This document shows positions 1,226 through 40,105 of a stretch of DNA of 64,000 nt, piece after piece. Position numbers and translations under genes: made by a program. Position 1 is the stretch's first letter; every line of letters starts with the position of its first letter. This DNA is from Kangiella marina (GTDB lineage Bacteria; Pseudomonadota; Gammaproteobacteria; Enterobacterales; Kangiellaceae). The notes beneath the pieces are model-generated. The model was not told the origin of the DNA. It saw only the letters and a list, made by a program, of their open reading frames with translations, and searched no databases. The stretch is taken from contig NZ_BAABFV010000002.1 of assembly GCF_039541235.1 (NCBI RefSeq), positions 186,001-250,000 of the forward strand. Direction: 5' to 3'.

Positions 1226-4200
1226 ATGGCGAAATCTTTGACAAGACTTTTTAGACGATTCTTAACCTACATTCTGTGGTTAGTGTCCCTGCTTGTCATT
1301 GTATTTGTTCTCGTCGTTTCTGTTATTAAATTAAGCCTGCCCTATTGGACTGAAAACAAAGATCGAATGATCGCTTTGTTGGAAGATAAAGTTGGTGGTG
1401 ATTTTAATTATTCGAGTCTTGAAGTTGATTGGTCTGAATTTAAACCGAGTATTTTTGTCAATGGTATAAGTTGGAGTAGTGAAAGCAAAGACCAGTCATA
1501 TCGGGCGGGCAAGGCTCATGTGGTTCTTAACTTTTGGGAAAGTTTATTCAAAGGGTATTTGGTAACAGAAAGCGTAGACCTCAATTCGGTTAATGCAGAA
1601 ATTATGCTGCCGCAATTGGCTGGTCAAGAAACCCCCTTATCCACTGACTTTGGAATTCTTCTTAAACGTTATCCTGAAATGATTGATCAGGAATCCATCA
1701 GTATTACTGACTTTAGTATTAACCTTCATAAAAAAGATGAAACTCGAAAAATCCAAATTAGTGACTTATCTTTTACTAAGCGAGGTAAGCAAAGACAGTT
1801 AATTGTAGAGTCGCAAAGCGCCTTTGCCTCTCAAGCTCGTCTAATTATAGAAAGTAAAGGCCAACCTTTTGTTGGAAACAGCCCGATCAAAATTTACGGT
1901 TTATTGCGAGATTTTGATGTGGTCGATAGCACCAGCTTTTTTGAATTACCACAGGGCATCCCCGTAGAATTAGCCGACAGTGAGTTTTGGGTAAGTTATC
2001 AAGGCGAAGATCCTGTTTCAGGAAGACTTATTTTTTCTGCAGACAGCAGCAGCTCAAAAGTCGCGGCGTTGAATTCTGAAATCAATTATCAGGTTGATGG
2101 GGCCTTATCCATTTTTTCCAGTGACCAGTTCCACGTTGTCGAACGAACCGAATCGGGTGAGTTACGAAGTTATGATAGTTTCTTCAAGCTTGTCCGCCAT
2201 CAAAAAGAGAGCAATACGACAGACTGGATCCTTGAAGCTGAAAATACACCGATAGGATATTTTTCAGCATTAGTATCCCCATTTTTGCCTTCAGACTTGC
2301 GTAATACCTTGAATCAAGTTCAACCAACGGGTGAATTGGTTTCTTTAGATATGGAGGCGACTCAGTCTGAGCATGGCCTAGTTCCTAAGTTTGGTTCTGC
2401 AGAAATTATTAACGTTCAAACGCAGCAAAGCAGATTGTCGCCTAGGATGAGTTTAGATCGAATACTCATTAATAACGAAGGCGAAGGTTGGCGTCTAAAG
2501 GCTGACAGCAAGAATAGCGAGCTTCAATGGGACAAGGAGTTGAAAGGCATTATTCCCGTCAAACAACTGACGCTTGATGCTTGGGTGAGTTATATTGACA
2601 CCCCCTATATTGATATTAATGGATTAACCTTTACCACTCCCGATCTCGATGTTGCTGTCAATGGTTCCGTCAGGATAATAGATGAGGACGCCGAGTTATC
2701 AATCTATGCAGAAGCCAAAAATATCAATATTGCTAAGCTAGAAGATTACTGGCCTAGAAGTCATATTGAAGACGATGTGTTGGATTTTTTAGATATGGCT
2801 TTAGTGGCGGGCCGTGTTGATTTTGCTAAGTTAACTTGGCGTGGCAACTTTGAACAGTTTCCCTATCAAAATAATACTGGTCAATTTGATATCAAAGCTC
2901 GTGTGGTTGATAGCCAGTTCCGCTTTGATGAAGCCTGGCCCATTGTCGATGGGTTATCGGCTTCTGTTCACTTTACCAATAATGAAGTGTTGATGACTGC
3001 CCATCAAGGCTCGATCATGGGGAATACTGTCGAGCAAGCGAAAGGTGTTATCGAATCACTCTTCACAGAAGGCTCAGTATTAACCTTAGACGTCAGCAAT
3101 AGAGTGGCTTTTGATAGTTACAAGCAGTTGTTTTTAAACTCACCGCTAAAAGAGTGGTTGGGCGAAGAGCTGTTGGACTTAGAGTTTTCGGGAAGTCTTA
3201 AGAATCAGCTATCAGCGACAGTGCCTTTGAGTGAGAACAGTGATGACATTACTTTAAATGGTGAGATCGAATTTGCTGGAGAAAGTGTTGAATTAAAAAG
3301 TTATCAGTTGGCGCTTAATAATCTTAGAGGGATTTTAAATTACTCGGAGCGTGGTGCATCGGCTAAACAGCTTAACGCTAGCTTATGGCAGAGCCCTGTG
3401 ACAATTGATATTGCTGTCGATGAATACACCAACAATGACGACTTAGTTAACATTGATGCGAACTCTAATTTTGATTTGGCTAAAGCCGTGGCTTCGCTCG
3501 ACATACAGTTACCGATATACGTTGAGGGCAAGAGTCAGGCTAACCTACATTATCGACAAGATAGCGAAGGGTCTGAGTCATTAATTGTACGTAGTGATCT
3601 AGCCGGGACAGAAATCAAAGGACCTTCTTGGGTCAGCAAAGAAAAAGATGCGCAAAGCTCCTTCTTAGCGACACTCTATAGAAAGAAAAATAGAATTCAT
3701 GCGAGAACCATCTATCGCGATACGGTTTCCTCGCAACTCGACTTTGGCGTTGATACACCGAACGACATCAATGGTGTTATTGCGCTTGGTGACTTAGCCA
3801 CTCATTCAATAAAGGTACCTGCAAAAGGGGTGGCGATTGAAGGTTTCTTTGCAGAAATTCACAGTGCAGAGTGGCTCAACAGTCTACAAGTAAAAAAAGA
3901 GGGTGAGTTTTTCTGGCCTGAGTGGATTGACCATATCTCTATTCAAACCGCACTTTTTACTATTGGCGGTCAATCGTTACACGATGTTGTGTTCACAGAT
4001 TCGTTGTTGGCGGATGAAAGCATCAGGTTCAACGTCAAGGCGCGTGAAGGCCTGGGTAACTTAACCTTGCACAACGATGGTCGCAAGCATGTCACCATTG
4101 AAAAACTCGAAATTGAATTGGATACGTTTTCCGAGCTTTCTGATACAGAAGTGAATATCAGTAAGTCAGCGCTGGATAATTGGCAGTTAGAGTGTTTAAG

Positions 4201-37381: not shown

Positions 37382-37838
37382 GCTACTTTTCTTGCTTGTC
37401 CAAGAAAAGTAGCCAAAAGAAAGACACCCCGATATTGAGGTTATTTTTCAAATAACTTCCTTCACTTCATTCAAGTCATTTAACGCACCATGAAATACAG
37501 CCCATCCATGGTCTGGATTTCATTATTCAAATCTTCCACGATTTGAATTGCTATGCCTTTCATTTCGATCAGCTCAATATAAGGGGGAATCGGTGCAGGC
37601 TTGTGCTTTTAGTAGCCCCTTAAAGTTAGCCGAGAGAGAAAAAGTTATAGCGTAAATTAGGCATGGAGCCTAATTTAGCTAAGACGAAACAGGGAGGTTT
37701 CGTTTAGCGGCGCGTAAGTAACTTTAATGAGCGAGGGAAGTCCGAAGGACCTAACGGTCTGGGGTGCCTTTTCTTTTGGTTCGTTTTTCCCTAAAGGGAT
37801 TCCCTTCGGTCACTTAGGCAAGCAAAGAAAATGAACGT
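37382..37838. repeat. Composite element with related inverted ends and internal hairpins
   Basis: The left end is a perfect 13-bp hairpin, GCTACTTTTCTTG/CAAGAAAAGTAGC (37382-37413), followed by CCAAAAGAAAGACACCCC. The right end, read in reverse (37787-37761), gives CCAAAAGAAAAGGCACCCC with an adjoining imperfect hairpin reaching 37838. Between them are further perfect hairpins: ATTCAAATC/GATTTGAAT (37525-37548), TAAATTAGGC/GCCTAATTTA (37653-37677) and ACGAAAC/GTTTCGT (37684-37703). No open frame of useful length is present. It resembles a non-autonomous, terminally inverted intergenic repeat. Confidence 0.65.
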
Positions 37839-38466: not shown

Positions 38467-38541
38467 TGAAAAAAAACAGTCAGCGCGAAGGTTACTAAGG
38501 GGTAGTTAGGTGTCTTGGGTTAAAACACTGCGCTGACTGTT
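38467..38541 (-). terminator. Long-loop Rho-independent terminator or structured 3' end
   Basis: AACAGTCAGCGC (38541-38530 read on the minus strand as the same 12-mer) pairs perfectly with GCGCTGACTGTT (38486-38475), followed by a run of eight T. The 43-nt loop can itself fold into GTGTTTT/AAGACAC and CTAA/TTAG hairpins, giving a branched structure. It starts 31 nt after the stop of the 76-codon gene, so it terminates that transcript. Confidence 0.75.
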
Positions 38542-38572: not shown

Positions 38573-38803
38573 CTATGATTCTTCTTCACCCGTTTCTTCT
38601 GACTGTGTTGTGACGAGTGCTCGGGTATGGTCGCCGTAGACGGGTTTTTCATTGCGTAGCATGTCCATCATGATTTGAAATTCTGGAGCATCTACATAGA
38701 CGCTTCTTTCGCGAGTATTATCGTAATAGGTAAACCAGAAGTGACCACGGTTTTGACTAGAGTCCCACCAGCCTTGGTATTTTTGAATCAGTTTGATCGC
38801 CAT
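38573..38803 (-). CDS. Small protein of unknown function (76 aa)
   Basis: I do not recognise this protein. It is compact and aromatic-rich at the N-terminus (YQGWWDSSQNRGHFWFTYYD), with a middle helix (PEFQIMMDMLRNEK) and an acidic Ser/Glu/Thr tail. No signal peptide or membrane segment is seen. The AAGGAA ribosome site sits in the loop of a small hairpin GAAAA/TTTTC (38819-38804) directly before the ATG. It lies downstream of the GGA-rich RNA region on the same strand and upstream of a terminator, so it may share that transcript. Confidence 0.7.
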   Translation of the reverse strand: MAIKLIQKYQGWWDSSQNRGHFWFTYYDNTRERSVYVDAPEFQIMMDMLRNEKPVYGDHTRALVTTQSEETGEEES

Positions 38804-39061
38804 GAAAAGTTCCTTTTTCAGTATTTCCGTAAATGTTCAATCCCTGAAACAGTGTCTCTATGTGACTTTGATGTTGAAAGGGGAGTGCACATCCTGTGCC
38901 GTTCCCCTTTTTCATCAACATGCTCATCATGAGCAAGCTCTTTCCCTAGAGATCTCTTCCTGAGATTTGTCCTTAAAGGGATCCTCCTTGAGATGACTCG
39001 TCCTGAGACATTCCCTTTCGCCCTTATCCTTAAAAGCGGAACCAGTCCGTCGGTTCACTTG
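38804..39061 (-). ncRNA. Candidate CsrB/RsmZ-family CsrA-binding small RNA (or CsrA-binding leader)
   Basis: The minus strand carries 14 GGA motifs in about 250 nt, most in predicted hairpin loops, the hallmark of CsrA/RsmA-sequestering RNAs. Examples, read on the minus strand: GAACC-GACGGACT-GGTTC (39056-39039), CGCTTTT-AAGGAT-AAGGGCG (39038-39019), ATCTC-AGGAA-GAGAT (38966-38952), CTCT-AGGGAA-AGAG (38951-38938), GCAC-AGGAT-GTGC (38899-38887) inside a GGGGA/TCCCC stem, ATTT-ACGG-AAAT (38834-38823). The 5' end is inferred from the promoter; no U-rich terminator is visible before the 76-codon gene, so the 3' end is uncertain and the RNA may continue into that gene. The plus strand has few GGA motifs here. 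Confidence 0.72.
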
Positions 39062-39068
39062 TAATTTA

Positions 39069-39100
39069 ATAATAAGTAGGAATTTGATGCTAGGTGTAAA
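39069..39100 (-). promoter_or_regulatory. Candidate promoter of the GGA-rich RNA
   Basis: On the minus strand, TATTAT (39074-39069) is a plausible -10, giving a start near 39061. A -35-like TTTACA (39100-39095) is 20 bp away, too far for a good sigma70 promoter, which suits an activator-dependent promoter. Confidence 0.4.
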
Positions 39101-39112
39101 CGATGAAGCTTT

Positions 39113-39130
39113 TGTGAGAGATTGACTACA
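39113..39130 (-). promoter_or_regulatory. GacA/UvrY-box-like site
   Basis: The minus strand reads TGTAGT-CAATCT-CTCACA. The upstream activating sequence of rsmX/Y/Z and related genes is TGTAAG-N6-CTTACA; nine of the twelve half-site bases agree. Its centre is about 60 bp upstream of the inferred start at 39061, a distance typical for GacA-dependent promoters. Confidence 0.5.
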
Positions 39131-39154: not shown

Positions 39155-40105
39155 CTATTCGTATTCGAGTTCGTCAAACAAGGGAGAGGGGCCGAAGACA
39201 TTGGACTGTGTGATGGTTGTAAATATTTCTAAGGCTTTAATGCCTTTGCTGGAGTTACCTTTACTGTTGAGGCCTGGACTCCATACGGCGACACTGTACT
39301 GATCCGGGTAGATGGCAACGATGCCACCGCCGACACCACTTTTTCCGGGTAGCCCGACTTTAAAGGCAAATTCACCCGCTTCGTCGTAAAAACCACATAA
39401 CAGCATAATGGAGTTGATACGCTTAGTTTCGCGTGCTGTAAGAACGGTGTCATTATTGAGCGGGTTTTTGCCACTACGAGCGAGGAACATGAAAGTCTGT
39501 GCTAAGTCTTTGCAGCTCATCTCGATCGAACAAAGGTGGAAGTAAAAGTCTAAAACCTCCTCGACGTCATTCTCAATATTGCCATAGGATTTCATGAGGT
39601 TTATGTGTGCGTTATTTTTGAAGCCACACTCTTTTTCTGACTCTGCTGTTGTTACACAGTAATCAATATGTGGGTTTCCGGCTAACTCACGTACAAACTG
39701 GATGAAGTCCTGATAGGGGTTCTCGAGTTGGCTGACTAAAATGTCACAAACCACGATGGCACCTGCATTGATAAGCGGGTTTCGAGGAATACCTTGCTCA
39801 TATTCAAGCTGAACTAAAGAGTTGAAAGGGCTGCCCGATGGCTCGACACCAACGCGCTTCCATAAGTCAGTACCTACTAACTTGAAGGCGTATACCAGAG
39901 ACAAAACCTTTGAAATACTTTGGATGGAAAATGACTCGTCAGTGTCGCCATGCGCATATTCATGGCCTTCCTCCGTCACCAAATAGATCCCAAACTTGTT
40001 AGGATTGGCTTTAGCTAATGCTGGGATATAGGTTGCAACCTGGCCGATTTCATCAAAGCCTTTTAGCTCTTCACTAATTTGTTCAAAGATTTCTTTATAA
40101 TTCAT
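39155..40105 (-). CDS. glsA: Glutaminase
   Basis: This is a 316-residue serine-dependent beta-lactamase-like glutaminase, converting glutamine to glutamate and ammonia. The catalytic Ser63-Lys66 pair is in FSIQSISK, with NPLINAGAIVV, the EKECGFKNNAHINLMKSYG segment and GVGGGIVAIYP near the C-terminus. The length matches the YbaS/YneH family. It is a single gene with 49 bp or less between its stop and the candidate regulatory sites of the RNA downstream. Confidence 0.95.
   Translation of the reverse strand: MNYKEIFEQISEELKGFDEIGQVATYIPALAKANPNKFGIYLVTEEGHEYAHGDTDESFSIQSISKVLSLVYAFKLVGTDLWKRVGVEPSGSPFNSLVQLEYEQGIPRNPLINAGAIVVCDILVSQLENPYQDFIQFVRELAGNPHIDYCVTTAESEKECGFKNNAHINLMKSYGNIENDVEEVLDFYFHLCSIEMSCKDLAQTFMFLARSGKNPLNNDTVLTARETKRINSIMLLCGFYDEAGEFAFKVGLPGKSGVGGGIVAIYPDQYSVAVWSPGLNSKGNSSKGIKALEIFTTITQSNVFGPSPLFDELEYE

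Follow-up and report, generated by a model that had tools for sequence, protein, structure and literature searches.

A candidate CsrB/RsmZ-type RNA without its own terminator in front of a small gene in Kangiella

Introduction

RNAs that act as sponges for CsrA usually, but not universally, end at an intrinsic terminator of their own; RsmW lacks an independent unit. CsrB of Escherichia coli harbours 22 GGA motifs (PMC7652899, PMC11882849). In the same species, an inverted repeat of 18 nt that is located far upstream of csrB and csrC is bound by UvrY, and a second region crosslinks close to the promoter (PMC4682653). RsmW of Pseudomonas aeruginosa appears to originate from the mRNA of PA4570, a gene of 74 codons; the RNA lies on the 3' side of this gene, no terminator separates the two, and GacA does not activate RsmW (PMC4950607). 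In the marine gammaproteobacterium Pseudoalteromonas fuliginea, the clade-specific extra Csr RNAs Pf2 and Pf3 were found via their GGA motifs, and they have intrinsic terminators and experimental support (PMC11882849).

Here, we analysed a 64,000-nucleotide stretch of the Kangiella marina genome (the window). Very probably, its minus strand encodes, from about position 39061, a CsrB/RsmZ-type RNA that would be activated by UvrY and sequester CsrA. The open-access literature searched contained no such RNA for Kangiella. Like CsrB/RsmB (RF00018), its best Rfam match, it is predicted to form many GGA-loop hairpins, and its host has CsrA, UvrY and BarA. However, it is about 190 nt long with 11-14 GGA motifs, compared with a model of 356 positions, and it has no terminator of its own. 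It falls into the size class of PrrB/RsmZ (RF00166) and RsmY and likewise has a putative activator site, some 60 bp ahead of the predicted start, but in contrast with these RNAs it lacks its own terminator and has no listed match to the RF00166 model. As in RsmW, an Rsm-type RNA would be part of a transcript shared with a small gene, but the Kangiella RNA is 5' of its gene and has a conserved promoter region of its own. Lastly, this candidate resembles Pf2 and Pf3 as a clade-specific RNA found through GGA motifs, but differs from them in the missing intrinsic terminator. It is a credible addition to the CsrB/RsmZ functional class, the lack of an own terminator being its unusual feature.

GGA motifs in predicted hairpin loops

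The original prediction placed the RNA between glsA (glutaminase, 39155-40105) and a 76-codon gene, on the basis of 14 densely clustered GGA motifs on the minus strand and no enrichment on the opposite strand. Our recount agrees on both points, with 14 GGA in 267 nt of the minus strand (39070-38804) and three on the plus strand. When every 260-nt stretch of both strands was scored, this one ranked first in the window (14; runner-up 10; mean 2.4, sd 1.66). Of the 14 motifs, 11 belong to the structured part (39061-38869), and the spacer and ribosome-binding site of the 76-codon gene contain the other three. With local dinucleotide content preserved, the count by itself stands out only modestly (11 vs 7.9 in shuffles, p 0.07), and loop placement is therefore the stronger test. 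In the minimum-energy fold for this species, five GGA motifs are in hairpin loops, the value for shuffles being 0.67, with none of 300 reaching five. Each of the seven Kangiella species has five to seven in predicted hairpin loops; shuffled sequences give about 0.6, and none of the 300 per species attains the observed number. The same test applied to the minimum-energy fold of the reverse strand placed no GGA in hairpin loops. The small GGA-loop hairpins listed in the original prediction are present in the RNAfold structure. The predicted RNA is composed of the following elements:

38869-39061, minus strand: Csr/Rsm-type sponge RNA (candidate), structured part of about 190 nt with ~7 hairpins and 11 GGA (Rfam CsrB, loop test, covariation, seven genomes)
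39039-39056, minus strand: hairpin 1, GAACCG-ACGGAC-TGGTTC (RNAfold; retained in the alignment)
39019-39038, minus strand: hairpin 2, CGCTTTTA-AGGA-TAAGGGCG (RNAfold; four pairs with double-sided changes between species)
38995-39009, minus strand: hairpin 3 of the consensus, around CTC-AGGAC-GAG (alignment consensus; the minimum-energy fold here prefers a different pairing)
38952-38966, minus strand: hairpin 4, ATCTC-AGGAA-GAGAT (RNAfold)
38938-38951, minus strand: hairpin 5, CTCT-AGGGAA-AGAG (RNAfold)
38922-38934, minus strand: hairpin 6, GCTC-ATGAT-GAGC (RNAfold)
38873-38919, minus strand: hairpin 7, a long 3' stem capped by GCAC-AGGAT-GTGC (RNAfold; covariance model of the 3' domain)

The loop of hairpin 6 contains a GGA motif in five of the six other species, and it is devoid of it here and in G008.

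Distribution and covariation

Searches at the DNA level and with a covariance model built on the 3' domain detected the RNA in single copy and at the same position in seven Kangiella genomes, with K. taiwanensis, K. spongicola and a Kangiella MAG among the sources of the orthologous loci. Apart from these seven loci, the covariance model yielded no convincing copy.

Covariation was assessed on the alignment of these seven sequences, which are few and related, with a consensus of 39 pairs. In total, 88% of cells are paired vs 36-52% with the partners slid, a comparison that favours the consensus since it was derived from the same alignment. Thirteen consensus pairs show double-sided changes and the covariation score is 0.322; of 500 shuffles, which ignore relatedness, none reached this score or the double-change counts. 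In this set of seven, the structure is thus conserved with compensatory changes, above both the slid and the shuffled controls. The RNAalifold covariation energy term is small (-0.46), and pair counts on the 3' domain alone are uninformative because this domain hardly varies.

Alternatively, the locus might be a non-regulatory, hairpin-rich intergenic repeat, or code for a plus-strand RNA. Intergenic hairpin repeats do exist in Kangiella, including a 160-bp TwoAYGGAY-like element at 37.5 kb with nine matches in this genome. The plus strand also folds well, with a z-score even better than that of the minus strand, as expected of hairpin-rich DNA. Nevertheless, a single-copy RNA in the same place in seven species does not behave as a repeat, the GGA loops are confined to the minus strand, and the strand-specific covariance model scores 84.8 bits on the minus strand vs 12.1 bits on the plus strand. 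We regard these alternatives as highly improbable.

TwoAYGGAY, the RNA family that this repeat family matches, belongs to the CsrB clan. One copy, at 37478-37553 of the window (minus strand), scores 44.6 with the Rfam TwoAYGGAY model, above the gathering score of 43. It belongs to the ~160-bp intergenic repeat, which has up to 22 matches in other Kangiella genomes, and was rejected as a second unique Csr RNA on account of this dispersion. On the opposite strand, a TwoAYGGAY-like two-hairpin structure is found below threshold at 37648-37727 (plus strand, 30.7 bits).

Rfam matches and protein partners

The best Rfam family at the locus is CsrB (RF00018), which matches the right strand over the full model, 1-356, with 28.7 bits and an E-value of 8.5e-6 in 1.3 kb. 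Across the 2.5-Mb genome, this model has a single match, exactly at this locus (E 3.9e-6). In G001, G006, G014 and G018, its top genome matches are the orthologous loci. The score is far under the gathering score of 71, and the RNA is therefore not a formal member of RF00018. Among the matches listed at the locus (E up to 10, not counting a weaker, overlapping hit to some family of the same clan), none was to RF00166, PrrB_RsmZ.

The original prediction depended on the presence of csrA and gacA/uvrY. Both are encoded in the genome above curated cut-offs (CsrA, 92.7 bits; UvrY/GacA, 324 bits for a cut-off of 280), and this possible objection therefore falls away. BarA/GacS is encoded as well (917 bits, cut-off 890). 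UvrY and CsrA were identified in every near-complete Kangiella genome searched. Two neighbouring csrA genes are present in G009 (contig 1, about 1322444-1323100) and G018 (contig 26, about 77955-79335), and one in the others.

Putative promoter and activator site

Two elements precede the RNA:

39069-39074, minus strand: putative -10 box TATTAT, position kept in seven species, with transcription predicted to start near 39061
39113-39130, minus strand: putative UvrY/GacA site TGTAGT-CAATCT-CTCACA (alignment)

The -10 box reads TATTAT, TATAGT or TATTGT across the seven species. A scan for the sigma-70 consensus gave no site at the putative promoter, which implies a weak -35. The right half of the putative GacA site (CTCACA or CTTACA) and the adjoining AAAAGCTTCATC are near-invariant in the seven species, and the left half is degenerate. 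As previously noted, the site at 39130-39113 matches TGTAAG-N6-CTTACA in nine of twelve positions. However, the window contains 31 such sites vs 28.4 expected by chance, and the match alone therefore constitutes no evidence for a GacA box. The conservation of the promoter block supports the presence of a conserved activator site, but does not single out UvrY as the protein that it would bind.

The 3' end and the 76-codon gene

Downstream of the RNA, two features were found:

38573-38803, minus strand: 76-codon gene with no Pfam or NCBIfam match (codon changes relative to orthologues mostly synonymous)
38469-38541, minus strand: intrinsic terminator past the 76-codon gene, with a long stem, nested hairpins, an ACCCC loop and eight U (fold z -4.6)

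No intrinsic terminator, the usual end of such RNAs, was identified between the RNA and the 76-codon gene in any of the seven species. The A and T stretches of hairpin 7 pair within its stem, among them the T stretch that could have served as a U-tract, and no free U-tract follows. The first good terminator downstream is the one beyond the 76-codon gene. Each of the seven species has this terminator, even G018, where the gene is missing. Its conserved ACCCC loop resembles the C-rich seed loops of base-pairing sRNAs, and this region could be an sRNA derived from the 3' UTR. The simplest reading of this arrangement is that the RNA and the 76-codon gene form one transcription unit. Given that no terminator immediately follows the RNA, processing, termination by Rho, or a combined role as sponge and mRNA is the probable fate of the transcript.

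Synonymous and non-synonymous codon changes in the 76-codon gene amount to 28:2, 24:2, 23:2, 25:12 and 35:9 in the comparisons with the orthologues, and by this measure the gene is under purifying selection in six genomes. The 76-residue protein matched nothing in Pfam, NCBIfam or PDB sequences, it did not align with CsrA, and its predicted fold (pLDDT 84) had no significant structural match. Outside Kangiella, the sole relatives found, 42-48% identical and partly in tandem, are from cyanobacterial MAGs (Coleofasciculus, Symploca), a pattern suggestive of horizontal transfer.

The GGA-rich stretch might serve the 76-codon mRNA as a 5' leader and nothing else, with CsrA repressing the gene in cis and no sponge being made. 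The lack of a terminator separating the two and the purifying selection on the gene fit this explanation. So does the extension of the GGA motifs into the ribosome-binding site, where the AAAAAGGA sequence and the upstream ACGGA could be CsrA sites. Nevertheless, CsrA-repressed leaders usually have fewer than eleven GGA sites, and here there are eleven or more. Furthermore, the gene is destroyed in G018, in which only a ribosome-binding site and a C-terminal remnant are left, with no start codon. Yet the G018 RNA, 80% identical to that of G009, retains 12 GGA, the hairpins, the promoter and the terminator, and the RNA is therefore not merely the leader of the gene. This loss, which concerns one lineage only, argues for a role of the RNA of its own, and we consider the leader explanation very unlikely.

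A joint transcript, the 5' part of which would sponge CsrA in trans and the 3' part encode the 76-residue protein, is an option that overlaps with our preferred reading of a CsrA-sequestering RNA. It would account for the terminator shared past the gene in seven species and for the GGA motifs at the ribosome-binding site, and RsmW/PA4570 provides a precedent for a Csr-type RNA arising from the mRNA of a small gene (PMC4950607). However, a short RNA released by processing or Rho termination would give an identical sequence picture, and the gene is dispensable in the G018 lineage. We hold the joint transcript to be possible rather than probable. A more elaborate version, a dual-function transcript with a multi-site CsrA sponge at its 5' end and a protein under CsrA control at its 3' end, made only after CsrA has been titrated, is rather doubtful.

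A second Csr-like RNA upstream of carA

The original prediction that this locus is a CsrB/RsmZ-type regulator is supported by the Rfam match, the GGA loops, the covariation and the protein partners, but it overlooked a further Csr-like RNA. Of the 18 Kangiella carA loci fetched, 14, including that of this genome, have upstream of the gene a short RNA-like element that combines five to seven GGA motifs with a textbook terminator; in the remaining four, a simple terminator pattern was unmatched, which is no proof of absence. Its coordinates in this genome are as follows:

G000 contig 1, locus L089, about 2236-2358, minus strand: carA-upstream RNA (candidate) with 6 GGA and a terminator, GGGCGGGATTACCGCCC then TTTTT

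The carA-upstream RNA has weak matches to Rfam CsrB or RsmZ (RsmZ, 20.9 bits, E 0.33), and an UvrY-like box is visible upstream of it in several species. In G027, which belongs to a different genus of the same family, a CsrB-like RNA with a terminator precedes a carA-like start (L067). The carA RNA is a candidate for a second, more widely conserved Csr-like RNA in Kangiella. Given its wider retention and the CsrB-like RNA of G027, the RNA at 39061 is probably a later, clade-specific addition beside it. This pair is comparable to the multiple Csr RNAs per genome reported elsewhere (PMC11882849).

Proposed model and significance

In the circuit that we propose from these sequence features, BarA/GacS would phosphorylate UvrY/GacA, which would then switch on the promoter near 39061. 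The resulting RNA would offer five to seven GGA-loop hairpins, together with unpaired GGA motifs, and bind several CsrA dimers, and this sequestration would free CsrA-repressed mRNAs for translation. With no intrinsic terminator directly behind the RNA, transcription probably continues through the 76-codon gene to an end near 38469. The sponge part might then be processed out, be Rho-terminated, or be active while attached.

The candidate RNA would thus fill a gap in the Csr/Gac circuit of Kangiella, having been missed at the Rfam gathering threshold. It would represent a clade-specific second sponge alongside the more widely kept one at carA, and may provide a natural example in which a Csr RNA is linked to a small gene and, in one lineage, has outlasted it.
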